Shown in pieces: positions 1,786 through 26,775 of a stretch of DNA of 64,000 nucleotides (position 1 is its first letter; each line of letters starts with the position of its first letter). This DNA comes from Acidilobaceae archaeon. Its GTDB lineage: Archaea > Thermoproteota > Thermoprotei_A > Sulfolobales > Acidilobaceae. Under the pieces are notes generated by a model. The model saw only the letters and a list, made by a program, of their open reading frames with translations. It was not told the origin of the DNA and did no database searches. A program made the translations under genes and the position numbers. Location: assembly GCA_027037535.1 (NCBI GenBank), contig JALVZQ010000003.1, positions 206,890 to 270,889 on the forward strand, written 5' to 3'.

Positions 1786-1786
1786 T

Positions 1787-2077: not shown

Positions 2078-2094
2078 ACCCTACGCGTAAAAAG

Positions 2095-4188
2095 TTATAC
2101 GAAGATAAGGGCATAGGATTTGTCTGCATTGTAAACTATCTGAACTCCTTCACCAGTATATGAAAGATATTCTGATAGTTCTTTCCTAGTAGATATTACG
2201 TACGCTAGGTTTTCAGGGTTTGACACTTCTAATACTAGTTCGTCTGTAGGTGTTTCTATAGTGAAAGTTCCTTTCAAGAACTCAATTATATAGCTAATAG
2301 GAAGTAGTTTGCCATCCAACAGTTTTGGATTGTTATTGACCTTTAGCCGTAATCTACTTCTTGACTTCGTAAATTCTATTATCAACGTATCGCCTAGCAC
2401 GTCGATTATATTGAAGTTTCTCGTTATTAATCCTATGCTTTCTTCTTTTTTCTTCATTGTTATATTATCGATATATTTTGTCCTGAAGCCTGTCTTCCTG
2501 AACATTATTAGTTTACTTATAAGTGTTGGCGGTCCGATTACATTGTTGAGTAGTTCAATAGCATCTTTGGGCGATAGATCTATTAAATTGAGTAAAGGTC
2601 TAACTCCGGTTACTCTCGACATTGAAGCTATTGTTAGAGCTTTAATTAGGTTTCTTCTTGTTTTTCGAATGTGGGCGGGAAGGAACCTGCTTGTATCCCT
2701 GGAACGCTTAGTATAGTTAGGATAAGTCTGAAGTATCCAAGACACTAATTCAGGATATGTTAGTTTTGGCGGTATAGGATTTTCGTCTAGCGAGTTTTCT
2801 GGAATAAATAGTATTATTGTAGAGTCCAATCCTTTTCTACCAATTCTGCCTATTCTTTGTATTACATCTTCTCCGCTAACTCCACCAGTTATTCCTAGAG
2901 TTACTTTTCCAAGGTTTACTCCTTGTGTAGTTGATTCTGACCCTACAATTATCGGGGCTCCAGGAGTACAATCATTTTTTGGAACCAGTCTGGCCATGCA
3001 TTCGACCTTGAATCCTTTATTGATGAGGGTTTCTTTAAGTTGTTGCACCATCCATAATTTCTCTAATATTAGCAGGGCTCTTTCATCTTTTGAGTCATTG
3101 TATTCTTTGAGTAGTCCTAGAAGCTTTTCCGGTACATATGTTATTATGTGTTCAGAGGCTTCGTAGTAGGCTCCCAATCCTTTCTTACTTGTTGTTACAG
3201 GTATAACCATAAGCTTTGTTGATCCTTTAACCGGAAATCCTATACTTGAGATATCTGCAGTTATGCTCGTTGGTTTGAGTCCTGTATCCAGTAGGCCTTG
3301 TATAGTGTCTTGTGCAGGCGTCGCCGACGATAATATGACTGGTAGACCATGCCAGTGTTTGAATATGCTGAGTATTGAGTATAAAGCGTCTAATTCGTAT
3401 GGACCATATAGATGGAATTCATCTATAAATAGTGGATGACGAAGTATATGTTCAACTACTGCTCGTTGTGCGGACTCTTGTTGTCTTGTCATAACACCTG
3501 TTTTCCGCAAGATGTCTTCGATTTTCTCGGGATCCTTACCTTCTGCTATCGCTAGCAGTATGTTATGGAGAGCTTTACCAACATTTTCAAAGCTCATATA
3601 CGCGCCTGTAAATATTAATAGAAACGTGTCTGGTGTGGAGAAGACAATTGTATATATTCCCTCTTTTCTTTTTCGAAGTATTTTTCTAGCATAGTTGTAG
3701 AGGATTTCTCTTTTTGGAGTGCCATCTTCGGAGATAATTGATTTACTAGATAAAGCCAACAGTGCAACATACTTATCGCCGCACCAAGAGTCTTGGGCTC
3801 CTAGTATTTCTTCACTTAATTGGTATATTCTTAGAGGTTCTATACAATCATAGTCCTCATCGCCGCAAATCTTGCTTTCAGGATATACCTCCTTGCCGCC
3901 TAAAGCTTCTCTTATTATTGAGATTATGGTTTCTATTTGGTTCCTTAGTAATGTATTGTTTGGATAAAGTGCTACAAACCCGTTCGTGGACTCTCCAGTA
4001 AAACCAGGTGATAAGAGTAGAGATAGGGTTTTCCCCGATCCTGTAGGAGCCTCAAGTACTAGATCATTCTTCTCCTCTAAGAGTTTATGTAGGCTGTGTT
4101 GAAAACTGTTCAACCTATATTTTCCGAGATAAGAGTTGGACCAAGGTATGGAAAATGATGGAATTTTAACAATATAAGGTAGACTCAT
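2095..4188 (-). CDS. cas3: Type I-D Cas3' helicase (no HD domain)
   Basis: This superfamily-2 helicase should unwind and translocate on target DNA after Cascade binding. Visible motifs are Walker A APTGSGKT (47-54), DEFH (256-259), SSATP (287-291) and, near residue 440, the arginine-finger motif QRIGRIGRKG. There is no N-terminal HD nuclease; in type I-D that domain resides in Cas10d, where it is indeed found in this operon. Its ATG overlaps the csc1 stop (ATGA), indicating translational coupling. The 697-residue length fits Cas3' proteins. Confidence 0.9.
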   Translation of the reverse strand: MSLPYIVKIPSFSIPWSNSYLGKYRLNSFQHSLHKLLEEKNDLVLEAPTGSGKTLSLLLSPGFTGESTNGFVALYPNNTLLRNQIETIISIIREALGGKEVYPESKICGDEDYDCIEPLRIYQLSEEILGAQDSWCGDKYVALLALSSKSIISEDGTPKREILYNYARKILRKRKEGIYTIVFSTPDTFLLIFTGAYMSFENVGKALHNILLAIAEGKDPEKIEDILRKTGVMTRQQESAQRAVVEHILRHPLFIDEFHLYGPYELDALYSILSIFKHWHGLPVILSSATPAQDTIQGLLDTGLKPTSITADISSIGFPVKGSTKLMVIPVTTSKKGLGAYYEASEHIITYVPEKLLGLLKEYNDSKDERALLILEKLWMVQQLKETLINKGFKVECMARLVPKNDCTPGAPIIVGSESTTQGVNLGKVTLGITGGVSGEDVIQRIGRIGRKGLDSTIILFIPENSLDENPIPPKLTYPELVSWILQTYPNYTKRSRDTSRFLPAHIRKTRRNLIKALTIASMSRVTGVRPLLNLIDLSPKDAIELLNNVIGPPTLISKLIMFRKTGFRTKYIDNITMKKKEESIGLITRNFNIIDVLGDTLIIEFTKSRSRLRLKVNNNPKLLDGKLLPISYIIEFLKGTFTIETPTDELVLEVSNPENLAYVISTRKELSEYLSYTGEGVQIVYNADKSYALIFV

Positions 4189-4883
4189 GACAATGACCTC
4201 TCAGACTTTAACGCAGGTAGAGTAATTGTTTTACGTCGTGTGGTTCCTTGATTGATTGAATAAATGTAGGCTTTCGAGGCTGTTCCTAGAAATGCAATAT
4301 CTCCAGCGGGATGGTTTATAATAACTATTCCACCTGAGGTCTCAACAACGTCACCTAAATTATAATAGTGTGTTACTCGACTGTTTTCCGCTACTTTGGG
4401 AGTTACCGGATAGAGTCGAATATGTAATGTTCCTGCTCTCTTGGAGCCAATACGTGTTATAAGTCTGGACGGCAGCTTATATTCGGATATAATTAGAGTT
4501 TCAAGAATGCTCCCCGGTAGGAGTACAGTGTTTCTTGCAATATCTGGATATGCGAAACGTCCTTTGCCTTTTGCTTCTACGAATCCTTCGCCCTTGGCAG
4601 AAAGAAATATGGTTTGTTGAACAGCCTTAACTGTGTAGAGCGGATAGCTATAGATACCAAATCTATGAAAGAGATCGAGTGGCTGTTTATATAATGTTTT
4701 GCCTCCTATAGAACTGTACCCTACATCGGGGTCGGCTACATATCCGGCTAGTGCTAATACAAATCCATAATTATGGAACACGGGAAGCATTAGATGAATA
4801 TATCCCATTGACTCGGGTCTAGCACTTGTATGATACCACAATATCCCATCGACTCTTATAGTGGCATGATAGAAAAATGCCAT
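4185..4883 (-). CDS. csc1: Cas5-group protein Csc1 (type I-D Cascade)
   Basis: Csc1/Cas5d caps the 5' handle of the crRNA in the type I-D effector complex. The start is placed at the second methionine (ATG 4883) because a good ribosome site (AAGGTGA) lies 7 nt before it; a TTG two codons upstream is the alternative. The 232-residue protein begins with a beta-strand-rich RAMP-like half (FFYHATIRVDG) and has glycine-rich turns in its middle. Identification rests on size, fold-like pattern and position between csc2 and cas3'. Confidence 0.8.
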   Translation of the reverse strand: MAFFYHATIRVDGILWYHTSARPESMGYIHLMLPVFHNYGFVLALAGYVADPDVGYSSIGGKTLYKQPLDLFHRFGIYSYPLYTVKAVQQTIFLSAKGEGFVEAKGKGRFAYPDIARNTVLLPGSILETLIISEYKLPSRLITRIGSKRAGTLHIRLYPVTPKVAENSRVTHYYNLGDVVETSGGIVIINHPAGDIAFLGTASKAYIYSINQGTTRRKTITLPALKSERSLS

Positions 4884-4920
4884 TGTCAACTCACCTTCAT
4901 GAGATACGTCAATGCATCAT

Positions 4921-5949
4921 TCATTTCTTCTTGCCTGATGCAAACGATATCCACTTCACCATCTGTTCCGCAAAATCTATGCTACTCTTCCATAAGTCAA
5001 GCATTGTATTGTCTGATAGTACTTCTTCGACATCTTCGTTAGTTAGTCTTATGAATCCGTATTTCTTCAGGTAGTCTCCTAGTTTTGAGAGGATCTCGGA
5101 GGGTTTACGGGAGCCCGCAAGATTATCTGCTAATTCGAGCGCCGTTGTCGAGCTGTGTGTGCCGCATCTGATACCTGCTAGTCGTATTTTAACTGTTCCA
5201 TATACTCCTGATCTTCCTCCAATTTCTTCTACGTGTATAAGTGATCCAAGTACTGCAAGGAGTTCTGGTAAGGTAACATCAGTTATAACTGCTCTTCCTA
5301 TGAAGATCGTTCCGGGTTCCACATGGATTTCAGTGTATAGTGATTGTCCCGTTGTAGAAAGCATTCCCTCGGATACTTTGTTGTGGGTCGCAGGGAGTAT
5401 ACCCTCGACTGTTGCGAATGCTGGATCAAAATGTATCCTTGTCTTTATACCAACGCTCATTCCCGAGATTGGCTTAAGTTGTTGTGATGTAAGTGCCACG
5501 CCAAATATGGTGCATGAAGGACAGTATCCATCCATACCTAGGTCTGTCGCTTTCTCTCCTCCACTTGCGAGCGGAGGTTGTATAGTGCAGTTCCATCCAG
5601 ACTTTAAATGCTCTGATGCTTTTGTGAACCCTAGTTCCTGTGCTTTTCGTATAAATTTGTTGACCTCGTCACTATGGTTGTTATAATGGTTTCTTAGAAG
5701 CTGCAAAAGAGTTCTTCTAGTAACAGCTTGTAGTTTTTCAGGAAGTATTACTGGCACTCGATGGCCTGATTCTGGTAGGGTTACTGCATTGATATCTCCA
5801 GGACCTTCTGTTCGGAGTAGTAGATAGTTGCCAGCCTCGACTATGAATACTACTTCTATTCTTTTAGCCATAGGATAAATACGGTTATTTTCACCTATCG
5901 ATCTCAAACAACTAGAGATTTTATTTATCCATGCAGACTCTTTACTCAT
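4921..5949 (-). CDS. csc2: Cas7-group backbone protein Csc2 (type I-D Cascade)
   Basis: Csc2 forms the helical backbone that coats the crRNA spacer. The 342-residue protein carries the family signature DGYCPSCTIFGVAL, a zinc-binding-like CPSC segment in the RRM-type fold, a long basic strand (KRIEVVFIVEAGNYLLLRTE) and glycine-rich loops such as GGRSGVYG. A strong ribosome site (GAGGTG) precedes the ATG. It sits between the small gene and csc1, the usual I-D arrangement. Confidence 0.9.
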   Translation of the reverse strand: MSKESAWINKISSCLRSIGENNRIYPMAKRIEVVFIVEAGNYLLLRTEGPGDINAVTLPESGHRVPVILPEKLQAVTRRTLLQLLRNHYNNHSDEVNKFIRKAQELGFTKASEHLKSGWNCTIQPPLASGGEKATDLGMDGYCPSCTIFGVALTSQQLKPISGMSVGIKTRIHFDPAFATVEGILPATHNKVSEGMLSTTGQSLYTEIHVEPGTIFIGRAVITDVTLPELLAVLGSLIHVEEIGGRSGVYGTVKIRLAGIRCGTHSSTTALELADNLAGSRKPSEILSKLGDYLKKYGFIRLTNEDVEEVLSDNTMLDLWKSSIDFAEQMVKWISFASGKKK

Positions 5950-5982
5950 CTATATTTCACCTCCCAACTATAGAGTGGAGAG

Positions 5983-6414
5983 CTATGTGCCCGTCTGGGC
6001 ACTGGAAAAAATTAATGAAAGTAAATTTTTACCTCCCGGAGGAAGATTATAGCGTGCCATTTCTGCAATAGAGGATAACAACATGTTCATTAACTGTATT
6101 TTTGCCCCCATTGGGAGATTTTCCGTTGTTTCTTTGAATCTTTTTAGTAATCCTTCTAGTAGAAGTGTGTAACATTCTCTAGCTTGGCCATATAATTCTT
6201 CGGGAACATAGGCATGTGCTAGTTCAGGTATGTATTCATCTGCTTTATCCCAAACCGTAAATAACAAGGTTTCGAGTGCTCTTCTGATTTCTTTAGTATA
6301 GACGTGAGTCGATGTAGCGCCTCTTTTGTTACCGACGTATTTCATTAGGGCAGCCAAACGCTCACTATAGTAATCTATTCCCCTCGAGGGATCATACCTG
6401 CATTCCTCCAACAC
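5983..6414 (-). CDS. Small helical protein, probable stand-alone Cas11d small subunit
   Basis: The 143-residue product is predicted almost entirely helical (for example YTKEIRRALETLLFTVWDKA) with no catalytic motif. It starts with GTG behind a GAGGTG site, 14 nt after the end of cas10d and just before csc2. In characterised I-D systems the small subunit Cas11d is made from an internal start inside cas10d. Here cas10d is short (622 residues) and this separate gene occupies the equivalent position, so it is most simply a detached Cas11d. A Csa5-like small subunit is the alternative. The assignment is inference from context. Confidence 0.6.
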   Translation of the reverse strand: MLEECRYDPSRGIDYYSERLAALMKYVGNKRGATSTHVYTKEIRRALETLLFTVWDKADEYIPELAHAYVPEELYGQARECYTLLLEGLLKRFKETTENLPMGAKIQLMNMLLSSIAEMARYNLPPGGKNLLSLIFSSAQTGT

Positions 6415-6427
6415 ATCTAATACACCT

Positions 6428-8296
6428 CTAAGCTACATGACCGGTTCGGAGGAAAAGATCCTCAATTAACGAATATAATCTGGGAGACGAATATTGAAGC
6501 AAGCTAGGAGAAATATCGGGTGGGTATGAAAGTACTTCAAATACAGCAGGGACTCCTTTTTCATCGGATTTCACATATTTTCTCCAGTATAGGTGGCCAA
6601 TGGCTGAGAGCGTTAGGGTAACGTATGGTGTATATTTTCCAATCTTTTTATCAGAAGGACTGAAATAGTAGAGCGGTCTTATACCATCCATATAGGACAA
6701 TAATAAATCGCTTGGAGATATAGGAGGGACATCGTCTATTACTAGTGGATAAAAGCCCCAAGTGCTAACAATTCCGGAGAGCGATAATAGTTTTGCATCT
6801 AGCTCAGCCTGTTTTCTGGAGACTCTGCTTATAGATACGAATATTCTAGAAGAGAACGCATCAATCTCGTATCCCAGACCACTAGATGACCCAATGTTTG
6901 TTAATACTTTGTCGAGAAAGCCTCCAGTGAAATACTCGTGTAATTGCAGGTCGTTGACTATTGTTTTCGTACCAATCGACGTTACGAGGGAATTAAGCAT
7001 TTTTCCAAGGTCGTCTAGTGCCGATAGAGGTATAGGTGATTTAATGATTGTAGTTAAAAACGCGTCAAAACGTGCTTTTAACATTGACTCGCCAATACAT
7101 AAAGGACATACACCGAAACCTGAGAGATTTTGCATTAATTGGTTAAGATTCTTTGGTGGCACGAACCTATTCCATTTCTCTGTTTTCCAATTCTTATTTA
7201 CGAATTGTAGAAAATCGCCTGTAACAGCTACAGGTGTTATCATTCCGCAGATGGTACATTTGACAACCTTCTTTACTGCTTTTGTATCGACAAATTTGAG
7301 ATTCTTTACCGTGATGTTTTTGAGCTGATTAGCAACATTATGTGGAAGGATGGGAAGTTCCTTGTTTTTCCGCCGATATCTTGTTCCGTAGTAGATTAAA
7401 ACTATTTCATAGGCACTTTTTGAGGAATCGGGCCATAGGCTTTTTTCGCAGTCTCGTTTAGTAAGTCGCTTCATTTTATCGCATTCCGGGGGTCTGTTTT
7501 TCTTACTTTTTCCGGTGCATTTCTTTATACAGTCCTTGTCTTTGCAGCAATTAGAATAGATTTCGAGCTCATCCTCTAAGGTATCCGGAAGGCCGAGGCT
7601 TGTTTCTCGGACTAAATTGTCCCAGTCAAGTTCTAGCAGATCAGTTAGATTATTGCTATTGTTTAGTATAATTAGGCCGGAAGGAAGCGAAATTGGTATT
7701 ATTACATTATTCTCTTCTGACTCTATTTTCTTAAGTTTATTATATAACGCATTCGTTATTTGTGTCCTTATCAATGTGTGGGGAATGCCGATATCGGCGT
7801 AGAGTATATTTAGTTTATCAGGTAATTGTTGTGAGGCTTCTGCAACGAGGGAATATAGCTCTGCCGGATTATTGGTTCCTTGCATTCTATCAGATAACCA
7901 TAATAAATTCCATACCCAATCGGGATATGTAGGGTCTTTTCTGGTCTCCGCTGGATTTGTACGTACATATTTAGAAAGGAATGATGCTTCTCTCGTGTCA
8001 TAGCCTATTTCTTCTAGTTTTGCTTGTATCCATTCTTCTAATTTGAGGAGATTTTTCGATCCTAATTTTTGACCTAGATCATGCAAGAAGCCGATTATAA
8101 ACGATTCTTTTTCGTCTGGTGCATCGTCCAGTTCATAAGCGTCAGCATATGACTGTGTTAATTCCTCGAATAAAACCGCTACACTATAGCTGTGGACTAG
8201 TAAGCTTATGCTTGTCCAGTATTTTGCTGGTAGTGCTGATAGTGGTGGTGGTAGGAGTGTGTATGCTATTTTTAGTCTTTGTTGTGGTGGGAGCAT
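6428..8296 (-). CDS. cas10d: Cas10d/Csc3, large subunit of type I-D Cascade with HD nuclease domain
   Basis: This is the signature protein of type I-D. The N-terminus holds an HD nuclease: H35 in LLVHSYS and the HD pair H72-D73 in FLHDLGQ. A zinc-finger-like quartet is formed by C347/C350 and C397/C400 (CTIC, CPLC), and a second Cys-rich patch lies at 250-283. No GGDD cyclase motif is visible, so cyclic-oligoadenylate synthesis is not expected. At 622 residues it seems to lack the C-terminal small-subunit module, matching the separate gene downstream. It is the first gene of the operon, with ribosome site GAGGTG and a TATA-like CTATAAATA about 40 nt upstream. Confidence 0.88.
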   Translation of the reverse strand: MLPPQQRLKIAYTLLPPPLSALPAKYWTSISLLVHSYSVAVLFEELTQSYADAYELDDAPDEKESFIIGFLHDLGQKLGSKNLLKLEEWIQAKLEEIGYDTREASFLSKYVRTNPAETRKDPTYPDWVWNLLWLSDRMQGTNNPAELYSLVAEASQQLPDKLNILYADIGIPHTLIRTQITNALYNKLKKIESEENNVIIPISLPSGLIILNNSNNLTDLLELDWDNLVRETSLGLPDTLEDELEIYSNCCKDKDCIKKCTGKSKKNRPPECDKMKRLTKRDCEKSLWPDSSKSAYEIVLIYYGTRYRRKNKELPILPHNVANQLKNITVKNLKFVDTKAVKKVVKCTICGMITPVAVTGDFLQFVNKNWKTEKWNRFVPPKNLNQLMQNLSGFGVCPLCIGESMLKARFDAFLTTIIKSPIPLSALDDLGKMLNSLVTSIGTKTIVNDLQLHEYFTGGFLDKVLTNIGSSSGLGYEIDAFSSRIFVSISRVSRKQAELDAKLLSLSGIVSTWGFYPLVIDDVPPISPSDLLLSYMDGIRPLYYFSPSDKKIGKYTPYVTLTLSAIGHLYWRKYVKSDEKGVPAVFEVLSYPPDISPSLLQYSSPRLYSLIEDLFLRTGHVA

Positions 8297-8375
8297 TGGT
8301 CCACCTCTGTTTCATTATGGTAATAGTATTATTATTTATAGTTTTGCTATTGTTATGGTTTACTATATTTTATTA

Positions 8376-8389
8376 ACCCTTTGAAGGGT
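8376..8389. promoter_or_regulatory. Palindrome between divergent cas10d and csa3 promoters
   Basis: ACCCTT-TG-AAGGGT is a perfect inverted repeat with 6-bp arms. It lies between the TATA-like ACTATATTTT (8362-8371) and the csa3 start, and also upstream of the cas10d promoter on the other strand. This is where an archaeal repressor would block polymerase recruitment. Csa3 itself, a dimeric wHTH protein encoded next to it, is the obvious candidate ligand; that link is inference. Confidence 0.45.
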
Positions 8390-8400
8390 GACTATATTTA

Positions 8401-9069
8401 TTGGTGTTTGACGTGTCTTCATGCTTAGTGGTACCCGTGGGTGTGACTCTTCAAACGGTCATGGAGTTTGTTGAGGATCCTAGGATTGGCGAGGTTTCTT
8501 GTGTTATTGGCGTGACTGTTGAGGGTTTTTTAGACGTTAAGGAGAAAATCTTCAAGCAGCTAGAGGAACTAGTAGAGGAACTAGGTGCTCGTTTATATAA
8601 GATAGTTCTTAAACCGTTGAGTCCCGGTGACGTGGCTAGGATCATGGAGGTATTATTGGAGGAGTCTCCGGGGATTGTGGTTGTTTCCTTGCTTAGTGGG
8701 AGTCGTTACCTGTATCCTGTAGTTGTCCAGGCAGTACTCTATTATGTTATGAATAATAATGCCAAGGGCTATATGTTGGTTGGAGTCGAGGGCGGTGTGT
8801 CCGAGCTGGTTCCATTGGCAGGCTTCTATGTGTATAGGCTTGAGAGGAGGCAGAGAGTTTTGTTCGAGCAGATATATGGTATAGAGGGAGATGTTATACG
8901 TGTCAAGGAGGACTTGATAATGCGGTATGGTTATGGGAGGTCGATCTATAAGGTTATACGGGAGTTGGAGAGGAAGGGTTTGATCCTGCATGGCAGGAAT
9001 ATTATTGCGAAGACTTTTCCTGGAAAGGTATTGTATAGGCTTATGAAGTTGGAGGCTGGAAAGGGTTGA
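8401..9069 (+). CDS. csa3: Csa3-type CRISPR regulator (CARF domain plus winged HTH)
   Basis: Csa3 proteins sense a ligand through a Rossmann-like CARF domain and control cas or CRISPR transcription. Residues 1-130 alternate beta strands and helices (CLVVPVGVTL, GIVVVSLLSGS), and the last 70 residues form a winged HTH (YGRSIYKVIRELERKGLI). The start is uncertain: TTG 8401 gives 222 residues, with in-frame GTGs at 8404, 8413 and 8428 as alternatives. It is divergent from the cas operon and its TGA overlaps the cas6 start, so the two are co-transcribed. Confidence 0.85.
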   Translation: MVFDVSSCLVVPVGVTLQTVMEFVEDPRIGEVSCVIGVTVEGFLDVKEKIFKQLEELVEELGARLYKIVLKPLSPGDVARIMEVLLEESPGIVVVSLLSGSRYLYPVVVQAVLYYVMNNNAKGYMLVGVEGGVSELVPLAGFYVYRLERRQRVLFEQIYGIEGDVIRVKEDLIMRYGYGRSIYKVIRELERKGLILHGRNIIAKTFPGKVLYRLMKLEAGKG

Positions 9070-9899
9070 GGGCTTACAGGGCTATCCTCGAAGTTCATTC
9101 TGGCAGGCCCGTGTATGAGTTTACGGGGGTACATGTCAAGACCCTGATCTATGCGTTGGCCAAGGAGCTACGGATATTCAGGGGGATTCGGGGGATTGTT
9201 TCGCCTGTACATCTCTCTCCCCTGTTTAGAGTGGGCAAGGGCGATATGGAGTTGGGAGACCTTGCCTCCCCCATGTATCGATGGGAAAGGGAGAGGGGTG
9301 AATGGGTACTTAAACCTGTAGAGCTGGAGGGAGAATACATTTTCCATTTCGGCGGAGACGACGTGATAGCGTCTAAGATAGCATCGTATCTAGAAGAGCT
9401 CCGTTCGCCGCTGGCGGTGAAAATAGGCGATTCCATAGTTACTTATAAGTTAGAAAAGTTAGAGGACGTAACTGATTCCATACGTGAGAAGGTTAGTGTC
9501 GGTAACCGTGTAAGGGTCTATCTAAAGGCTCCGGCTATGATATTCAATGTTTTTACGCGGAGTAAGCTGCCTAAATTCAGTCCTTCCGCCGTCGAGGTAT
9601 TAATGGTGCCATATATGCTTGTCATTGGGGCGCAGACGTTTTCCCAGGGGATCCTGGACTCGTCCCTCGAGATCCTCGGCGGACTCGTGGAGACCTGGTA
9701 TAGTTTAAACACGTTGAGGCCTGTGATGATCCCATATAAGGGTAAGAGAGAGGTGGCATTGATGGGCCAGGTCACGTACATAGTGGAGGTATCGCCGAGG
9801 CATAGGCGTAGAGTGGAGGATATACTAGTTGTTGCCGAGACATCTGGCATCGGGGAATCCCGGCAGAATGGCTTCGGTACCGTGGTTGTACAGGCTTAG
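9066..9899 (+). CDS. cas6: Cas6-family crRNA-processing endoribonuclease
   Basis: Cas6 cuts pre-crRNA within the repeat. The 277-residue protein shows the two-RAMP organisation and ends with the diagnostic glycine-rich loop ESRQNGFGTVVV. Conserved hydrophobic strands precede it (EVALMGQVTYIVEV). The TTG start overlaps the csa3 stop (TTGA), so it is the second gene of the csa3-cas6 operon, transcribed away from the Cascade genes. No catalytic His can be fixed by inspection. Confidence 0.85.
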   Translation: MRAYRAILEVHSGRPVYEFTGVHVKTLIYALAKELRIFRGIRGIVSPVHLSPLFRVGKGDMELGDLASPMYRWERERGEWVLKPVELEGEYIFHFGGDDVIASKIASYLEELRSPLAVKIGDSIVTYKLEKLEDVTDSIREKVSVGNRVRVYLKAPAMIFNVFTRSKLPKFSPSAVEVLMVPYMLVIGAQTFSQGILDSSLEILGGLVETWYSLNTLRPVMIPYKGKREVALMGQVTYIVEVSPRHRRRVEDILVVAETSGIGESRQNGFGTVVVQA

Positions 9900-10970: not shown

Positions 10971-11303
10971 CTATCCCTACGTTTTCTATATGGTCTGGTT
11001 TATACAGTTACTTAGGAAGCGTAATTCGAAAAGTAGCAGGTTTTCATGTTTTATAATTGTTTATTTATTCTGTGAATAAATAGATTTTTCATAAATTAGT
11101 GAAATTATTTATGAATATAATAAGTTTAAGGTATAGATAATTGTATTTAATTTAATGATATTTATATAATATATCTATCATACAATTAAATATAATATTA
11201 ATAGTGATATACATATAGTTGAGGGAAAATATTTTGTTTTCTATCAATGACATTTATATTTTATTTCAGTGTACAATCTTATCTCTTGGAGTGGTGTATT
11301 TGT
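10971..11303. promoter_or_regulatory. AT-rich upstream region of pgsC with inverted repeats
   Basis: This strongly AT-rich stretch has no convincing gene. It holds a 9-bp inverted repeat at 11062-11070/11074-11082 (arm TATTTATTC, 3-nt spacer), another at 11088-11096/11107-11115 (arm TTCATAAAT, 10-nt spacer) and distant AATTGTAT/ATACAATT arms around 11140-11200. Several TATA-like runs precede the pgsC ribosome site. Some repeats may be chance in such biased sequence. Confidence 0.4.
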
Positions 11304-11780
11304 ATGTATCTATATCTGGGAGTGTTTAAGGGGGACATATTAACAGCGCTTATCCTTATTATAGGGTTTCTAATAGGATTCATAGTATATAGTAAGTTTA
11401 AGGTTCAAATCGGGGGTGTGATAGCCACTCCTCTTCTGGTTCTCTACGTATTAAATTACCCAAAGTCAATAATAGTTTTCATTATAGCAGTTGTCATGAC
11501 ATATTTGGTTTTAGAAGTCTTAGTTGAAACTACACTAATGTATGGTAGAAGATTATATTATATTGGTGCAATTGTAAGTATAATAACAACATATATACTC
11601 ATGAAATATATAAGTATAGTGCAACCAGCATATTTCAGCATAATCCCGGCTATAATAGGGTATAATGTCTATCGTGAGAGTGAAAGCGTAGAAAACCTTG
11701 CTCGCTCAATTCTCATATGGTTACTCGAATTTTTATCTATCCTGGCTATAGCACTCGTTATAATATCCTTTGAGGGGTGA
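11304..11780 (+). CDS. PgsC/CapC-like membrane protein
   Basis: In bacteria PgsC is the membrane partner of the PgsB amide ligase that makes poly-gamma-glutamate. The ATG at 11304 has a strong site GGAGTGGTG 7 nt upstream and gives 158 residues, close to the 149 of Bacillus PgsC; an upstream ATG at 11247 would add 19 residues. There are four to five membrane segments. The segment LVETTLMYGRRLYYIGAIVS resembles the PgsC signature around LYGRR, and TYLVLEVLV the preceding helix. The stop overlaps the next gene's start. Base composition is more AT-rich than the neighbours. Confidence 0.7.
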   Translation: MYLYLGVFKGDILTALILIIGFLIGFIVYSKFKVQIGGVIATPLLVLYVLNYPKSIIVFIIAVVMTYLVLEVLVETTLMYGRRLYYIGAIVSIITTYILMKYISIVQPAYFSIIPAIIGYNVYRESESVENLARSILIWLLEFLSILAIALVIISFEG

Positions 11781-12907
11781 TGCTATTTAAAACATTTCAA
11801 ATAAGAAGGTTAGGGTTAAACGACTATAGATTATATCGTAGAAACTTAGCTAATTCAAATCATAGGATTGTTGTAGAGGGTATGAGAGGAAAATCTGGGC
11901 TGGTTGTAACACTTTATAAACTACTATATCGGAGAAACACAGAGATACTCGGGAAAATAACAGGGTTAGAACCAAAGATTTTTTACGAGGGAGAAATAAT
12001 TGACATAGACAGAGGTTCATCTAGAAAATTCTTCTTGGACGAGGAAAATGTGGGAATTATAACCAGGTATCCGGCGAAGATCTATATAGCAGAGAACCAA
12101 GCGATTACCCGTCTAACAATGAAGCATTTTCATAGAATATACAAACCCGATATAATAGTGATTCCAAACGTACGCTATGAACATATGGAAGGTCTTGGGG
12201 AAACAATAAGAGAAATAGCAGAGGCATTTGCTCTAGGATTCAGAAACACTAAATATGTTTTTTATGCTAAGTCTACTGAGAAATATGATGGAGAAGTCGA
12301 AAAAATATTCAGGAAATATACCAATAAATATGGAGTCAATCTTATAACTATAGACATACCGGAAAAAGAGAGAGAACTACCAGCTATTGAGCGAATATAT
12401 CTATCAGAAGTTATTCTAAAACATTTAGGTTTTAAAATAACCGAAGAGGAGAAAAAAGAGATATATAACGCCATAACAGAGAGTCTTAAGCCATCAATGT
12501 CTCCACTTGGAATCGAATGGTATGATGCAAGTAAAGTAAACGATCCGGAATCTACAGAGCTAGTGATAAAATACCTCCTCAGTAGAACTAATAAACCAAT
12601 ATACATTTTTGCATATTTAAGGAAAGACAGAGTTGACAGGACACAGGCTTTCCAATTATATTTCGAGAATCTTAGTAAAAATGACAGGATTAAAAAAGTA
12701 TGGGTTGCTGGAGCGTATCGTAGACTAATTCTTAAGAGGCTAGGAGAAAAAGGAGAAGCCATTAATGAGGAAGATATTATAAGAATAGTAAATATAGTAA
12801 GAAGCCATAATGGAATGCTAATTTTAGCAGTTAACGGGGTGAATCCATTCGTAGACAAAGTAAGAGGTATTCTCTCAGGATCAGAGTCTTTCAGTAGGAA
12901 TAATTAA
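11777..12907 (+). CDS. PgsB/CapB-like amide ligase (Mur-ligase-type P-loop)
   Basis: PgsB/CapB is the ATP-dependent ligase that joins glutamates through gamma-carboxyls. The 376 residues match the family length (about 390). The N-terminal segment RIVVEGMRGKSGLV (P-loop GMRGKSG, 35-41) followed by LGKITGLEP reproduces the CapB pattern GTRGKS...KTTGT. A conserved AENQAITRL and IVIPNVRYEHMEGLG follow, comparable to the CapB segment with the DHxxxxG ligand loop. The start is GTG 11777 or ATG 11780, both overlapping pgsC. PgsA/CapA is absent nearby, so the real polymer or product is unknown. Confidence 0.75.
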   Translation: MMLFKTFQIRRLGLNDYRLYRRNLANSNHRIVVEGMRGKSGLVVTLYKLLYRRNTEILGKITGLEPKIFYEGEIIDIDRGSSRKFFLDEENVGIITRYPAKIYIAENQAITRLTMKHFHRIYKPDIIVIPNVRYEHMEGLGETIREIAEAFALGFRNTKYVFYAKSTEKYDGEVEKIFRKYTNKYGVNLITIDIPEKERELPAIERIYLSEVILKHLGFKITEEEKKEIYNAITESLKPSMSPLGIEWYDASKVNDPESTELVIKYLLSRTNKPIYIFAYLRKDRVDRTQAFQLYFENLSKNDRIKKVWVAGAYRRLILKRLGEKGEAINEEDIIRIVNIVRSHNGMLILAVNGVNPFVDKVRGILSGSESFSRNN

Positions 12908-12918
12908 TTCTCAGTAGG

Positions 12919-13146
12919 TTAATTATTCTCTTTTTCTAGGCATCTTAGTACTAGTGCTAGTAGTATTGGTTCGAGGGGGTCGTGCATAGGGGTATACCTG
13001 TAGGCGTCGACTATATCGTATACTTTTTCTAGGGCTTCTAGTAGCAGTTCTCGGTCCCGGGGATTTTTCAGATGGTGTGCTAGCCTTCGTAGGCGTTTGA
13101 GCTCTTCCTCTACAGGTATTCTAGTAGATGGCGCTGTCCGTCCCAT
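12919..13146 (-). CDS. Small helical protein of unknown function beside the RadA-like gene
   Basis: The 75-residue charged protein is predicted to be mainly two or three helices (EEELKRLRRLAHHLK, RELLLEALEKVYDIVDAY). No family is recognised. Its ATG lies inside the end of the RadA-like gene (37-nt overlap, other frame), so the two are probably translated from one message and may act together. It converges on the PgsB-like gene. Confidence 0.6.
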   Translation of the reverse strand: MGRTAPSTRIPVEEELKRLRRLAHHLKNPRDRELLLEALEKVYDIVDAYRYTPMHDPLEPILLALVLRCLEKENN

Positions 13147-13766
13147 CTAAATCCCACCTCAAGCTCAGACATAGGCACAGTTATAGACCTGGGTACTGGG
13201 CGGGCGACGTGTTTTACTAGTGTCGCGTACAGTCCTCGGGCCCTCGCTACGAGTCTTACTATAACGTGTACTGTGTGGTGGTGGAATTGCCCGCCCTCGG
13301 GGAATTTGCCCTTGCCCATCCTGGTCGACTGGTTGAAGACAAGCACGTAGCGGTCGTGTAGCGATGCTTCTTTTAGCGCGGATGTTATAGGTGTGAGCTT
13401 GTCGTAGCTTGTCCAGCTCCGGGGCGCGTAGAGGTATGGGTTGGAGACTATGATTGTGTGTGAGCCTGTGGAGACGGCTTCCCTGATGAGGCCGGGAACG
13501 TCTTGGAGCCTGAATGCGCGGGCTACTAGTATATTGTCCTCGTATCCTCTCCTGAACCTCACGAGTCTCCTCAACAGGTACGGATCCAGGCCCCCGAACT
13601 CCTGGACATGGACAACTGTTACAGGGCCCCTCTTAGAGGCCTCGGCTATTGCATGGTGTAGTACTAGGCGGACGCCCTGCTCCCATCCATATAGCTCGAC
13701 TATCCATCCTGGCCTGACAGGGCCTATTAGGTAGTCGAGGCTTGGAACACCTGTAAGCTTCTTCAC
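13110..13766 (-). CDS. RadA/RecA-fold paralog lacking Walker A
   Basis: The 218-residue protein follows the RadA core. It starts TGVPSLDYLIG, then ELYGWEQGVRLVLHHAI where active RadA has the P-loop GxxxxGKT, then VLVFNQSTRMG (RadA TNQV strand) and PEGGQFHHHTVHVIVRL (RadA P-GG...H...R). The P-loop lysine is gone, and the Walker B strand reads TIIVSNP without Asp. It should keep the fold but not hydrolyse ATP. It starts with GTG and is divergent from the PolB2 gene 180 bp away, suggesting an accessory role for that polymerase. Confidence 0.7.
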   Translation of the reverse strand: MKKLTGVPSLDYLIGPVRPGWIVELYGWEQGVRLVLHHAIAEASKRGPVTVVHVQEFGGLDPYLLRRLVRFRRGYEDNILVARAFRLQDVPGLIREAVSTGSHTIIVSNPYLYAPRSWTSYDKLTPITSALKEASLHDRYVLVFNQSTRMGKGKFPEGGQFHHHTVHVIVRLVARARGLYATLVKHVARPVPRSITVPMSELEVGFRWDGQRHLLEYL

Positions 13767-13946
13767 TGTACCGGGTCCCCTCCGGGCTATCTAGGATAAG
13801 ATGATACTTCCCTGTTATAGGAGTCTCCCGATGAAGAGTCCCTAGCCGGGGACCCGGTATGCCGGGAGAACACCTTGTAGACCACGTGTATTAGACAGGA
13901 TACTCTCGGAGAAGCGGAGTATAGGATTGGAGCACTCTCTCCCACT

Positions 13947-16028
13947 ATGCAGAGACAGGATCTCGTATCGACGAAATACAACATTGATCCTTCAAAGAAT
14001 CCCCGTGGAGAGGCTAGAGGGGAAAGAGAGGTTTCACCGGGATTGGAGGGGGTTCTCTTAGACGCGTATCCTTCCAAGGATAAGGGACTAGAACTAGCTA
14101 TAGCCACGGAGAACGGAATAGAGAGGATAACATATAACGCCAGCTACAAGATCTATCTAAGACCCCTCCGTACCGAGCCAAGAAGAATCCTACGGGGTCT
14201 CGAAGCCGATGATATAGATGCATGGGTAGAGGAGTGGCTTCTCCCACCATGGTACGCTGCTAGGGGACAGATAATAGTACTAGAATCAAGCAGGTTAAGG
14301 CTCCTTACGAGTATCGCATCAATACTCCAAGACCAGGGACTAGTACGACAAGTCAATAACTATCCCGGGCCCCACATAAGGGCTCTATGGAGCCAAGGCC
14401 TAACTCCGGGAACAAGGATAGAATACTATAAGGGTAATTTAAGACTCCTAGAGGATCCATGGGACCCACTCTACCCGGTGCCAAGCCTCCGCATAGCCAG
14501 GATAAGAGCCTACTCCTGGCACGGGCCGGTAGTTGCGCCATGGGAAGAGCCCAGAGAGATAATCGCCGAGTGCTGTGGAGAAAGACGTATAACGAGGGAC
14601 CCGGGCGAGGTCCTAGACCTGTTAAGAAGCTGGAGACCGCACCTTGTAGATGCCAGAATACCTGATCGCTGGAGCCTCCCACTGGATCAGGGACCCGGAT
14701 GGTACTGGTACGATCCCGACAAGAACCTTGTCTCTCCCTGGGGACTCCTCGAATGGATGAGGGTCTCAAGCCTACCCTATAGGGAGGCGCACGGGGCACC
14801 TATCGGAAAAATACTCACCGCGGCCGAAGCACGCGAAGCCTATAAGAGAAGATACCTCATAGACCCATCTACTCCACGCTACGAGAAGCCTAGACTTGTC
14901 AAGAGACTCATAGACGCGGACATGGCAGGGGCAGCGAGGATCCCGCGGCCCGGGCTCTACTGGGATATAATACAGCTAGATTACTCGAGCCTGTATCCCA
15001 GCCTCATAAGCATCCATAATATCAGTGCTGAGACAGTAAACAACCCCTATTGTAGGAATACAAGGGAAGCACCGTTTATAGGGCATAGGATATGCGTCGA
15101 GTCCCGGGGACTAGTAAGCAAGGTGCTAGGAGAACTAGTACAGCGTAGACAAATGATAAAGGAGGCCAAGCCAAGGGATCCCCGGGTAAAGGAGAGGAGC
15201 GAGGCCCTGAAATGGATACTCGTATCAGGCTTCGGATACCTAGGATATAGGAATAGCCTGTTCGGAAGCATAAGCGCCTACGAGACAGTGACCGCCTACG
15301 CAAGGAGAGCACTGGCGATAGCGGAAGAAACCGCGTCCAGACACGGGTACAAGGTCATACACGCGATAGTAGACTCCATATTCCTAGAACCAAGAAACCC
15401 CAACATAAGCATAGAAGAGCTAGCCCAGGAGATAACGCGGAGAGTAGGGGTAAAGCTACGGATAGAAGCACGCTACAAGTGGCTCTACATTCCATCCACG
15501 ATGAAAGGCACCGGAGCCGTGAACAAATACTATGGATCACTCCTAGACGGGGGCATAAAGCTACGCGGGATAATGGCAATACGCGGAGACACGCCCCCAT
15601 TAATAGCGAGGAGTCAAAGAGCAGCGATAAACCTGCTGGCCAGGGCCAAGACCCCGGTGGAGCTGGAGGAGCTCGCAGAGAACAAGGTAGCCCCACTCCT
15701 AGAAAAAATACAGAGCCTAATAGAGTCCGGAGAAGCCCAGCCCAGGCTACTCGTTATAAAGAAGAAGCAGAGAGACTCGGAGAGACGCACGCCATGGCGC
15801 AGAGCGTCCAAGGACAAGCTAGTAGACTACGTTAAATATATTGTAACCCTCAGGGGTCCATGGCCAGTCTGGCAAGGCCCACCAGTCTCATACGATAAAC
15901 ACTATTATCTCAGACTATTATACTCGATGATCCAAGAGCTACCCTCCACCACTACAATAGCTAGGATACGGGAAAACCTGGCTGAAAAGATAATGGGTCA
16001 GAAAAGGCCAATTCTATCATCACCATAG
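13947..16028 (+). CDS. Family B DNA polymerase of the PolB2 (Dpo2-like) group
   Basis: The 693-residue protein has a family B polymerase core. Motif A is LDYSSLYPS (D345), motif B KWILVSGFGYLGY (K422), and motif C reads AIVDS (474-477) where active enzymes have DTDS, so the first motif C aspartate is replaced. The N-terminal 330 residues are short and show no DxE exonuclease motif. This altered motif C and lost exonuclease are hallmarks of crenarchaeal PolB2, a group implicated in DNA-damage tolerance. It is divergent from the RadA-like gene. The start is uncertain; the first 30 residues are poorly structured. Confidence 0.85.
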   Translation: MQRQDLVSTKYNIDPSKNPRGEARGEREVSPGLEGVLLDAYPSKDKGLELAIATENGIERITYNASYKIYLRPLRTEPRRILRGLEADDIDAWVEEWLLPPWYAARGQIIVLESSRLRLLTSIASILQDQGLVRQVNNYPGPHIRALWSQGLTPGTRIEYYKGNLRLLEDPWDPLYPVPSLRIARIRAYSWHGPVVAPWEEPREIIAECCGERRITRDPGEVLDLLRSWRPHLVDARIPDRWSLPLDQGPGWYWYDPDKNLVSPWGLLEWMRVSSLPYREAHGAPIGKILTAAEAREAYKRRYLIDPSTPRYEKPRLVKRLIDADMAGAARIPRPGLYWDIIQLDYSSLYPSLISIHNISAETVNNPYCRNTREAPFIGHRICVESRGLVSKVLGELVQRRQMIKEAKPRDPRVKERSEALKWILVSGFGYLGYRNSLFGSISAYETVTAYARRALAIAEETASRHGYKVIHAIVDSIFLEPRNPNISIEELAQEITRRVGVKLRIEARYKWLYIPSTMKGTGAVNKYYGSLLDGGIKLRGIMAIRGDTPPLIARSQRAAINLLARAKTPVELEELAENKVAPLLEKIQSLIESGEAQPRLLVIKKKQRDSERRTPWRRASKDKLVDYVKYIVTLRGPWPVWQGPPVSYDKHYYLRLLYSMIQELPSTTTIARIRENLAEKIMGQKRPILSSP

Positions 16029-22335: not shown

Positions 22336-24462
22336 CTAGCCGAAAAGCGCCGATACATCGAAGTGGAGTGTTACTGGCGGACAAGTCCTAGCCATGATAG
22401 CTGTTTCCCTAAAGACATGGCTCTGAATAATCATCTGCCTATCCCTCAGTCTTGGAATATACGGCTTATACTCTGGATCAATATCTAGTCTCTCTAGCTG
22501 GTGCCTCTCTGTTCTCAGAACGATCTTTGTATTAGCAAGCTGCAGGATTATATCATGTAGGTCGCGTGGGCTGTGAGAAGCAAACAATAATCCAATACCC
22601 CTCGCTCTCCCAAGACGGGCGATACGCGAGATAGTTGATGCTATCTGTCTAGTTGCCTCCAGTTCCTCCCTGCTACCATGCTCCTGGGGGAAGAACTGGT
22701 GGGCCTCGTCAACCACTACTAGGATAGGAAGAGATCGTTTCCTTTCCCTGTAGACTCTCTGTTTCCATACAGCCAGGCGATCCAGCAACCTATATGCTAT
22801 AAGCCTAGATCCCTCCTGGCCTGAGAACGCTGTGTCCAATGCTGGTTTAAGATCAATTACTATCGGCATACTGTGCTCCTCTGCTATCTCGATGAGCGTC
22901 TTCCAGCTAGGCTCATTCCTTACGCTCACACTTTGGGACTTGGAATCAACACGGATAACATCGATTAAGCCAGACTCAAGAGCACTAGCCAGCCTCCTAT
23001 ATAACGACTCTAGGGTTCCAGAATGAGGACGCATCTTTTCTAGTATATCGTAGAGATAGCCCACCATGTCGATAAGGGGAATATCAGAATTACCGTACTT
23101 ATACCTAGCGTATGAGTTCTCTAAATCATTAATGGAGTAATCTCCTTCTTCCACATACATACGTTCTATAACGACGTCTTTAGCAGAGTCAAGATCGTAC
23201 TCTTTTCTATATCTATCTCTATTCTTTGACTGAATAGTCGAGAGATACGCCTTCACAGCCGCTAGTACCGTGGGTAGCGGCGGATAGAATCCATAATCCT
23301 TGTGGAACCTCGTCCTCAATACTCTAAGCAGGTCTCTGGCAAACATTGTCATTCCAGGTATCATGCCGAAAAGATTCTCGGTCCCGGTCATAGTAGTATT
23401 AATAGTATATGGCGTTATGATTATACTTGCCCCGACGACGTCTATCATAAAGTACTCGATACCTCCTTTCTTAACACGAACAATACCGAAGTTCTTTCTG
23501 TCATCGATAAGAGGAGAGATAGCCTCTTCAACATATTCTCTTATCGTTGCGCGGAGAGGATCGTCCGCGGATCTTAGCATCTCCACTGTTACTGGCAGCA
23601 CAACTAGTACTCCCCGGGGATGCCTTAGCCTCCCCTTGTTAGCCTTGTACACCGGATCCTGGGACAACTGCTTCCGCGACTCTGGTCTAGGAGGAAACGG
23701 TAATTGGACATAGTCTTGATTCATATCTATTATGACTGCGGCAAGCTTCGGCTTCCCGGCAGAGTATATTGATGATACCATGTTTTTAATCAAGGTCGTC
23801 TTACCGCTCCCAGTTGTGCCGAGAACCAGGACGTGTTGGAGTACAGCCTTATAAGGAAGATAGACTGGGATACCGGCGTTCTTAACTATACCGGCAGGAT
23901 GCGCCAATGAGCCGAGGAGGATTCCCTCGTCTGGGAGAGCTAGTAGGCGCATGATTACCCATGGCAATGGATCGATGACAGGAGACTGGGGCTCTATACT
24001 CGATGATGCCGGAGAGGGATCAATTAGATCAGGATATCTTGCCTCCATAAGAGGCTCGGCCTCGATAATAGTTGAGGTGGCGACTGAGCCCGTGTCAGGT
24101 TCAAGGCTGTACTGTGAGATAGGAGGCTCGACCCCTATCTTTGCGAGGGCATCTTGTCTAAGTATACGAGTGATCCTTAGGAGGACGACGTTTAGTGTTT
24201 TAGGATCTATTACAGCTAGATAATCTCCTATCCTGTAGAGACTTGAGGAGCCAGAATAGTAGGTTTCCGGATCGACCTCGATCTTTATGGTTTCTCCAGG
24301 CCCTACAGTCACATCCCAGTACCGCGTGGTTCTCCCCACAATAACTCCGAGCTCCTCGGCTACACCGTACGCTCGCCTATACATCTCATCGAGTCTCTCT
24401 GCGAGGCCCGGAGAGCCGAGGCCTCCTAATAGTGTGCCGAGATCCTTCTTGTCTTTCTCCAT
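22336..24462 (-). CDS. herA: HerA-type DNA translocase/helicase
   Basis: HerA is a hexameric ATPase that works with NurA nuclease in 5'-end resection for recombinational repair. It has an N-terminal HAS-barrel-like region, Walker A GTTGSGKTTLI, AVIIDMNQDY, Walker B ILVVVDEAHQFF, and the late motif RIARLGRARGIGLLFASHSPRDL. At 708 residues it is longer than the roughly 500 of Sulfolobus HerA, the extra length lying in the mid-region. It starts 37 nt inside the 3' end of nurA, which is upstream, so the pair is co-transcribed. Mre11/Rad50 are not in the window. Confidence 0.92.
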   Translation of the reverse strand: MEKDKKDLGTLLGGLGSPGLAERLDEMYRRAYGVAEELGVIVGRTTRYWDVTVGPGETIKIEVDPETYYSGSSSLYRIGDYLAVIDPKTLNVVLLRITRILRQDALAKIGVEPPISQYSLEPDTGSVATSTIIEAEPLMEARYPDLIDPSPASSSIEPQSPVIDPLPWVIMRLLALPDEGILLGSLAHPAGIVKNAGIPVYLPYKAVLQHVLVLGTTGSGKTTLIKNMVSSIYSAGKPKLAAVIIDMNQDYVQLPFPPRPESRKQLSQDPVYKANKGRLRHPRGVLVVLPVTVEMLRSADDPLRATIREYVEEAISPLIDDRKNFGIVRVKKGGIEYFMIDVVGASIIITPYTINTTMTGTENLFGMIPGMTMFARDLLRVLRTRFHKDYGFYPPLPTVLAAVKAYLSTIQSKNRDRYRKEYDLDSAKDVVIERMYVEEGDYSINDLENSYARYKYGNSDIPLIDMVGYLYDILEKMRPHSGTLESLYRRLASALESGLIDVIRVDSKSQSVSVRNEPSWKTLIEIAEEHSMPIVIDLKPALDTAFSGQEGSRLIAYRLLDRLAVWKQRVYRERKRSLPILVVVDEAHQFFPQEHGSREELEATRQIASTISRIARLGRARGIGLLFASHSPRDLHDIILQLANTKIVLRTERHQLERLDIDPEYKPYIPRLRDRQMIIQSHVFRETAIMARTCPPVTLHFDVSALFG

Positions 24463-25724
24463 GACGCTTCGGCCTCCAGGAGATTATCGTAGGAGAGGCT
24501 TCCACCGGACTCCACTATTCTAGAGGCTAGATAATCATGTATTGCCCTGCTAATATGCTTGGATCTATAATCGGAGACGTGTATGGAGACTGGCGTGGTG
24601 CTACCCCTTAACACGGAGTCGTAGGCGAGTATATGGTATGCTGATAGCTTCAGTTCTCCCAGTATATTGGATGTGGACTCTGTGTATTCCAGTCTATAGG
24701 TTCTTGGTACTAGGGAGTGTTGCCATTTTCCAGCTGGTATAGCCGTGTATTCTAGTATCTTCACGTATGGCTGGTTTGTCTTTTTAGAGTAGAGGAATGT
24801 TATCTTGGGGCTACTGTATATTGATCCGGGGACTATCCTTGTGCAGTGTGTGTAGTAGTGGGCTAGTATTTTTTGGTCGGAATATTCTCCTCCCTTCCTG
24901 AAGCATTGGGATAGTCGTGGCGATCCCTTTACAACCCTGTCTAGTATGAGGCTGTGTTCTAGCCGTTTAACTACGCCTATTACGGGTACTCCCTTTGCCT
25001 CGAGCCGGTGTATTGCTTGCAGACGTGTTATGAGGAGTTGTTGCCAGGACTCGGTGTATTCGTTCTTATACTCGTGGTATTTTTCGTGGGCCATGGTTAG
25101 AGGATATACTGGGCCATCTACTAGTACTACTGGCTGTATATCTATTCTGTCTGCGAGTTCCTCGATTATCGTTGGGGCTACTTTGTCGAGTAGCCAGTTT
25201 TCTAGTAGGAGTCTTAGCTCGTCTTGGGCTTGTTCGATGCTGTATGCGGCGTTGTAGTTGTATCCTGCCGGGTTTTTTGTTATTATAATAGGATTGTTTG
25301 CTGAGGGGATTTCGTGGGGGAGTAATGGTATAAGGAAGCCCGGGCCCTGTAGGTTTAGCTCTGTTGATGAGAGCGAGGGGTATTCTATTGTATGTGTTGA
25401 TCCTATTGTGAGTGTCGCTGCGCCTATTATGAGTGATCCGTGTGAGAGGTCGATGCTCCTGCTACTGCTATCTATTCCTATTGTTACTAGTTTATGGTTT
25501 AGCCGGGATATTCTGTGTTTTACGAGTTTGATTGTTCTTGGCGCTAGGAGCCTGTTTATCACGTGGTCTAGTATTATGCTGAAGTTTCCTCGGTGTTCGA
25601 GGGGTTCTCTTATTTCTAGGAGCTGGTCTAGTCTCATGGGATCGCTGTAGGGCTGTGTATAGTTGTCGTTCTCGCCTAGTAGCGTGCTTGTTGCTTCTAG
25701 TAGTCTTAGCAGGCTAGGAGTCAT
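24426..25724 (-). CDS. nurA: NurA 5'-3' nuclease
   Basis: NurA is the HerA-partner nuclease. With the ATG at 25724 the product is 432 residues. Conserved blocks are VTIGIDSSSRSID (first metal Asp), VVLVDGPVYPLT (second Asp) and KGVPVIGVVKRLE. The open frame continues to 25889, but the added 55 residues would overlap the end of the neighbouring amidohydrolase gene and read like a shadow, so the inner ATG is preferred. It is first in the nurA-herA operon. Confidence 0.85.
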   Translation of the reverse strand: MTPSLLRLLEATSTLLGENDNYTQPYSDPMRLDQLLEIREPLEHRGNFSIILDHVINRLLAPRTIKLVKHRISRLNHKLVTIGIDSSSRSIDLSHGSLIIGAATLTIGSTHTIEYPSLSSTELNLQGPGFLIPLLPHEIPSANNPIIITKNPAGYNYNAAYSIEQAQDELRLLLENWLLDKVAPTIIEELADRIDIQPVVLVDGPVYPLTMAHEKYHEYKNEYTESWQQLLITRLQAIHRLEAKGVPVIGVVKRLEHSLILDRVVKGSPRLSQCFRKGGEYSDQKILAHYYTHCTRIVPGSIYSSPKITFLYSKKTNQPYVKILEYTAIPAGKWQHSLVPRTYRLEYTESTSNILGELKLSAYHILAYDSVLRGSTTPVSIHVSDYRSKHISRAIHDYLASRIVESGGSLSYDNLLEAEASWRKTRRISAHY

Positions 25725-25824
25725 ACGTTGACACCTTGGATAATTTTGTCTATCCTTGTCCAGTTGAATATGGGGAGGTAATACCTTATGTATATAATAT
25801 GATATATCCGCAGGCCCCTCCCTC

Positions 25825-26775
25825 CTACAACCTGCCAAGCATCCGGAGGAGTCTCTCAGCATTATCGTGGAGAATAGCTCGCTTAGCATCGCTACTTATA
25901 TCGAGCTTCAAGATATCCCTAATAGAGTCCTCTATAGTAAAACCTACGAGGTATGGGAAATCGCTACCGAACAAGATCTTATCATATCCGACCTCCTCGA
26001 CAGCACGCTCAACAAACAAGGGATCCACAGCACTCGTATCCATCCACACGTTGTCAACGTTGTAGGCCTGCAATGCTTCTCTAAAATAGATGCCTGGCAT
26101 AATAGCGCTATAGGATCCCATATGGGCGATAATGAAAGGAATATCAGGGAACTTCTTAGCCGCCTCCGCGACAAACTTTGGCCTCGCATATCTACACATC
26201 TTAGGGAGCTCCCAGAGGCCAGGATCACAGCCTGTATGGACTATAACTAAACCATTGATGCCTTCAACAAACCTGTATAACTTATAGAGCTTGCTGGAGG
26301 AAGGACTTATACAGTGGAGAGTAGGATATATCTTGACGCCTAGAAGCTTATCCCGGTAAACACGCATTCTTTCTATTACTTTATCAACGCCATAGTCGGG
26401 ATTATAGCTCCCAACCGGATAGAGCCTCCCGGGATATTTCTCAACTGCTTTCACTACTTCTTCGGTCCTTCGCCTGTGTTCTATTAGTAATTGGACGTGT
26501 TCATCGATACCCTTGTCGGGCTCAAAGATGAGTGTTCGGATACTACGAATAGGGCTATGGGCCACATAGTCGAGTATTTCTTGGACTGCGTTTCTGACGT
26601 ATTTGGGGTTAACGCGTTTCTTAAAGCTCTCAACACCACCCTCTATGGCTATAACCACAGCCCTCTCTACATTAGCTTCGTCCAGCTTCTTTACCAGGTA
26701 ATCGGCGGCAGCTATAGGATCCTTGTACCTATATGGTAGGTGCACGTGGAAGTCTATTACTGGGCCGTAATCCAT
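25825..26775 (-). CDS. Amidohydrolase-2 family metal-dependent hydrolase
   Basis: This TIM-barrel hydrolase or decarboxylase resembles COG2159. It begins with the metal motif VIDFHVHLP (HxH) and continues with KIYPTLHC, LVIVHTGC, FIIAHMGSY and FGSDFPYLVG near the C-terminus, the standard order of metal and catalytic residues. Length is 316. The stop lies about 100 bp upstream of nurA on the same strand. The substrate is unknown. Confidence 0.88.
   Translation of the reverse strand: MDYGPVIDFHVHLPYRYKDPIAAADYLVKKLDEANVERAVVIAIEGGVESFKKRVNPKYVRNAVQEILDYVAHSPIRSIRTLIFEPDKGIDEHVQLLIEHRRRTEEVVKAVEKYPGRLYPVGSYNPDYGVDKVIERMRVYRDKLLGVKIYPTLHCISPSSSKLYKLYRFVEGINGLVIVHTGCDPGLWELPKMCRYARPKFVAEAAKKFPDIPFIIAHMGSYSAIMPGIYFREALQAYNVDNVWMDTSAVDPLFVERAVEEVGYDKILFGSDFPYLVGFTIEDSIRDILKLDISSDAKRAILHDNAERLLRMLGRL

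Follow-up and report, generated by a model that had tools for sequence, protein, structure and literature searches.

A probable PolB2 mutasome locus with a dual-coded iRadA-PPB2 overlap in an Acidilobaceae archaeon

The trio of PolB2, iRadA and PPB2 (arCOG07300) was recorded by Makarova 2014 (PMC4104785), in a literature that termed PolB2 inactivated. The Sulfolobus enzyme, PolB2/Dpo2, is an experimentally proven, damage-inducible mismatch-extender translesion synthesis (TLS) polymerase (PMC7390963, PMC8764526), and it is in Sulfolobus only that TLS-extender activity and damage induction are known. The three proteins have been modelled with AlphaFold as a heteropentameric "PolB2 mutasome" of composition PolB2:iRadA:PPB2(3) (Timinskas 2025, PMC11791011). 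Bacteria have comparable assemblies in E. coli Pol V (UmuD'2C-RecA) and ImuA-ImuB-DnaE2, where a RecA-family protein likewise assists a damage-tolerance polymerase and where, in Pol V, a small subunit is also present. However, these polymerases belong to families other than the B-family of PolB2, and the RecA of Pol V is an active ATPase, whereas iRadA is inactive, RadA-derived and itself the bearer of a clamp motif.

The window, which is the whole 64,000-nucleotide stretch of an Acidilobaceae archaeon genome that was analysed, contains a locus (Table 1) with the gene neighbourhood of the PolB2 mutasome, both iRadA and PPB2 accompanying polB2. It is a thermophile's (heat-loving organism's) copy of the published system and not a new module. 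With the described mutasome (PMC11791011, PMC4104785) it shares the three genes, the absence of an exonuclease and a set of family motifs, and it is because of the match in these motifs (the MGRT arm of PPB2, the inactivated Walker A and C-terminal PCNA-box of iRadA, the motif C without its first Asp and D325 of PolB2) that the locus is read in this way. The published genes are co-directional whereas those of the window are divergent, with DM in place of D(K/R) in the polymerase. With Sulfolobus Dpo2 (PMC7390963, PMC8764526) the window polymerase has in common its family and the same motif loss, but the Sulfolobaceae loci that were seen have the order PPB2-PolB2-iRadA without the overlap found in the window, and their genomes also have PolY, from both of which the window genome differs. 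The probability that the locus encodes a PolB2 mutasome working as proposed is put at roughly 0.9. The present analysis establishes gene identities, the fold of iRadA, motif losses, co-occurrence and the conservation of dual coding.

Table 1. Features of the PolB2-iRadA-PPB2 locus, in window coordinates
Feature	Position	Strand	Remark
PPB2 (arCOG07300-type), 75 aa, N-terminal arm MGRTAPSTR	12919-13146	-	
37 nt shared by the 3' end of iRadA and the 5' end of PPB2, in two frames	13110-13146	-	
iRadA, RadA/Rad51-fold protein, 218 aa, lacking the N-terminal domain and Walker A	13110-13766	-	
C-terminal PIP-like box of iRadA, QRHLLEYL (FEN1 of the same genome ends QTSLDSWFG)	13113-13136	-	
PPB2 arm MGRTAPSTR, other frame of the overlap	13120-13146	-	
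Degenerate Walker A of iRadA, GWEQGVRL, against GEFGSGKTQ in the genome's active RadA	13665-13688	-	sequence
Intergenic region between the divergent genes; perfect inverted repeat of 12 bp, TACCGGGTCCCC (13769-13780) / GGGGACCCGGTA (13848-13859)	13769-13859	.	
PolB2 DNA polymerase	13947-16028	+	ORF of 693 aa; start probably TTG 14043 (661 aa)
Altered motif C of PolB2, IVDS (substituted at the first Asp but not at the second)	15366-15377	+	alignment

The three proteins and their motifs

The polymerase has the B-family palm, the motif C without its first Asp and the decayed exonuclease that characterise PolB2. Its only Pfam match is DNA_pol_B (PF00136, 2.9e-15), no exonuclease family being matched by Pfam in the open reading frame. 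Motif C reads HAIVDSIF, with D476 retained and the first Asp substituted, as in all 30 aligned homologues, and across 30 sequences D345 of motif A, K422 and D476 are invariant. Equally invariant among the 30 homologues is D325 of the D(K/R) motif, the next residue being M in the window clade, and residue 315, which adjoins this motif and is aromatic in 23/30 homologues, is replaced by Pro in the window. To judge from these residues, Pro315 and DM may alter the contacts with iRadA and PPB2, and the docking of iRadA may be weaker in this lineage. The true start of the protein is probably the TTG given in Table 1, since the homologues begin at MEG(V/L)xLDA and since residues 1-29 have a pLDDT <50. 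Activity of the window PolB2 cannot be assumed, because the PolB2 of the Aeropyrum clade has been described as a variant, mPolB2, whose active site carries further changes (PMC7390963).

iRadA is predicted with confidence to have a RecA-type core (pLDDT 92.7), whose best fold matches in the PDB are RAD51, DMC1 and RadA. As described for the iRadA of the mutasome, it comprises this core with no N-terminal domain and with its ATPase site lost: it lacks the Walker A GxxxxGKT of an active RadA/Rad51 recombinase and has YGWEQGVRL at the place of YGEFGSGKTQ in the RadA of the same genome. The one active RadA of the genome is encoded elsewhere (C5). Within PPB2, which in the described mutasome is a small helical protein, M1, G2 and R3 are invariant and T4 and R9 nearly so among 17 homologues, and the N-terminal arm in the window agrees with the published MGRT motif, Arg3 and Arg9 included.

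A sequence-only reading of this DNA had already described a polymerase with a broken DTDS motif (IVDS) and no exonuclease, a divergent RadA fold with GWEQGVRL in place of the P-loop and a 75-residue gene overlapping it, all of which is borne out here. Its suggestion of an archaeal translesion module also proved right, although such a module is not new. In the likeness that it drew to bacterial mutasomes, a RecA-family helper of a damage-tolerance polymerase is indeed common to both. An ImuA/ImuB system has an ImuB-type Y-family protein with a DnaE2 partner, while this genome encodes no PF00817 protein and the polymerase is of the B-family. Among described systems Pol V is a nearer counterpart than ImuA, because iRadA is an inactivated Rad51/RadA homologue.

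The overlap of iRadA and PPB2

In the window the iRadA and PPB2 genes have exactly 37 nt in common; over 24 non-redundant loci the overlap is 37, 40 or 49 nt, a recurrence by which it is not incidental. In one frame the shared nucleotides encode the MGRT arm of PPB2; in the frame at +1 to the PPB2 start they give the iRadA C-terminus W-D-G-Q-R-H-L-L-E-Y-L, which contains the PCNA-box. By its sequence this tail is likely a clamp-docking box of the kind that ends FEN1, and the host genome encodes three PCNA paralogues beside FEN1. The overlap does not appear in the main text of Timinskas 2025 (PMC11791011), and the dual coding of an iRadA clamp box and a PPB2 arm is apparently unreported.

Is the box selected in its own right, or does it simply fall out of the frame that encodes the PPB2 arm, with no binding to PCNA? 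The latter would account for the W of the motif, which is forced by ATG-GG, Met10 followed by a codon starting with G automatically giving W. It does not account for the box as a whole. When the PPB2 peptides were held fixed and synonymous codons were drawn from each locus's own usage, this codon shuffling led to an expectation of 0.8 boxes in the 24 non-redundant overlapping loci, against 20 observed and 0/44 in loci that do not overlap, although the loci are related, so that the trials are not independent and 20 versus 0.8 is not a formal probability. On this ground an origin of the box as a by-product was rejected. At the sites of Q, L, E, the aromatic and the final L the third positions hardly vary, but at the x sites they do. 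Overlapped loci are set apart in three further ways: the third base of codon 4 is A in 20/24 overlapped versus 12/44 non-overlapped loci, that of codon 7 is T in 22/24 versus 14/44, and PPB2 has Met10 in 14/24 overlapped loci versus 3/44 others. The aromatic is kept in different clades as W (TGG) or as Y (TAC), and PIP-like tails exist where there is no overlap, mostly in relaxed form (25/30 relaxed, 4/30 strict). An origin of the tail as a mere by-product is therefore considered unlikely.

Quite unlikely, too, is that the nucleotides owe their conservation to an RNA element or a signal for the translation of PPB2 and not to dual protein coding. PPB2 does start within the overlap, and translational coupling could arise from the iRadA frame that leads into it, but the variation that is seen keeps the iRadA residues within their amino-acid classes, as in the exchange of TGG for TAC, and the sites of variable iRadA residues are free. 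The favoured reading, held somewhat more readily than its denial, is that across a broad range of Thermoproteota selection acts on the iRadA clamp box together with the PPB2 active-site arm as a single dual-coding unit, in which two contacts, one with the clamp and one with polymerase and DNA, would be genetically locked together and would survive inversion of the locus against polB2.

Distribution and layout of the locus

The sequence-only reading had proposed a survey of PolB2 neighbourhoods for the RadA-like gene, in which a want of co-occurrence was to count against the module. No such want was found: 18 of 60 relatives bear iRadA, and the same 18/18 have a third, PolB2-type polymerase, an association stronger than chance, where the call relies on best matches of at least 187 bits versus at most 112 bits for other PolBs. 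PPB2 adjoins iRadA or PolB2 in 17/18 of these, and one further genome of the 60 has PolB2 at a contig edge. Order-wide, iRadA occurs in 78/214 genomes. A search for loci with a single PolB2 protein as query returned none, and one with an alignment returned 80. Y-family polymerases (PF00817) are present in 30/214 genomes of the order, all within one family (f11), and none was found in the window's 99.94%-complete genome.

Two genomes depart from the usual linkage. In Aeropyrum sp. (G033) PolB2 lies, at 12-2024 of locus L042, in two pieces of opposite orientation, one containing a TAG, ~20 kb from an intact iRadA-PPB2 pair on the same contig, which represents a broken gene, an inversion or an assembly error. 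In the other (G029; L021, L040), iRadA-PPB2 and PolB2 are on different contigs and no PolB2 lies within ~2.1 kb downstream or 3.1 kb upstream of iRadA-PPB2, so the trio may be unlinked there. PolB2 has been linked in the literature with genomes of low GC, to which Aeropyrum is already an exception (PMC7390963). The window clade does not follow this link, with a GC content of 44% in the window, 60% in a locus of the same genus (L025) and 58% in Aeropyrum.

In the window genome iRadA and PPB2 are on the minus strand and polB2 is divergent on the plus strand, and thus the trio is not a single operon. A PolB2 tree with 77 loci implies at least 5 changes in how iRadA is oriented to polB2 and at least 4 in the overlap state; the window layout is therefore a recurrent local rearrangement through which the genes stay together. 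The intergenic inverted repeat has its arms 67 nt apart, with one directly against the start codon of iRadA. Neither the exact 12-mer nor the exact pair is found at any other place in the genome. The repeat is not claimed as an operator, because none was found in the divergent locus of the same genus and because the RNA fold of the intergenic stretch is no more stable than its shuffles (z -0.55). The ANTTTC damage-response element of Sulfolobales is absent between 12131 and 18238, and a sigma-70 promoter scan, which does not cover archaeal promoters, gave no match.

Of the surrounding genes, two at 11247-12907 resemble those for poly-gamma-glutamate synthesis, PgsC and PgsB, at scores below the curated NCBIfam cut-offs, and are directly convergent with PPB2. 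HerA-like and NurA-like end-resection genes (22336-25889) lie ~6 kb from PolB2. The window further contains a Type I-D-like CRISPR-Cas cluster (232-9899), with Cas1, a Cas3d-like helicase, Cas5d, Csc2/Cas7d, Cas10d, a Csa3-related CARF regulator and Cas6, and an archaeal SRP RNA (50878-51209, plus strand).

That the trio is a decaying remnant, a PolB2 and a RadA copy devoid of catalysis that regulate replication or do nothing, is very improbable: the Walker A, the first catalytic Asp and the exonuclease are all lost, in keeping with the early description of PolB2 as inactivated, the additional changes of the Aeropyrum-clade variant and the broken, inverted PolB2 of G033, but the invariance of D345, K422 and D476, the persistence of the three genes together through rearrangements and the activity of Sulfolobus Dpo2 (PMC8764526) all stand against decay.

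A working model and its meaning for the host

As a working PolB2 mutasome, the three proteins would form the complex suggested by the published AlphaFold models. PolB2 would extend mismatched or lesion-distal primer ends, with iRadA as a catalytically dead RadA subunit that PolB2 would grip in the way that RadA grips the next RadA in a filament. Of the PPB2 trimer, one MGRT arm would be pushed into the PolB2-iRadA cleft close to the DNA, and the C-terminal PCNA-box of iRadA would tether the complex to the clamp. For the window organism we infer induction, clamp binding and a mutagenic role.

The trio is in this sense a known machine that is structurally unsolved in the PDB copy searched, which holds no solved structure of PolB2, iRadA or PPB2. 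If the dual-coding unit is real, the PCNA-box that is chosen determines the wobble positions in the PPB2 arm, and residue 10 of the arm as well. The overlap provides a cheap and sharp handle, as edits synonymous in one frame could change either the clamp box or the arm of PPB2 on its own. Since the host, like all searched genomes of the order outside that one family, is without Y-family polymerases, the trio is a candidate for the chief translesion polymerase of this organism.
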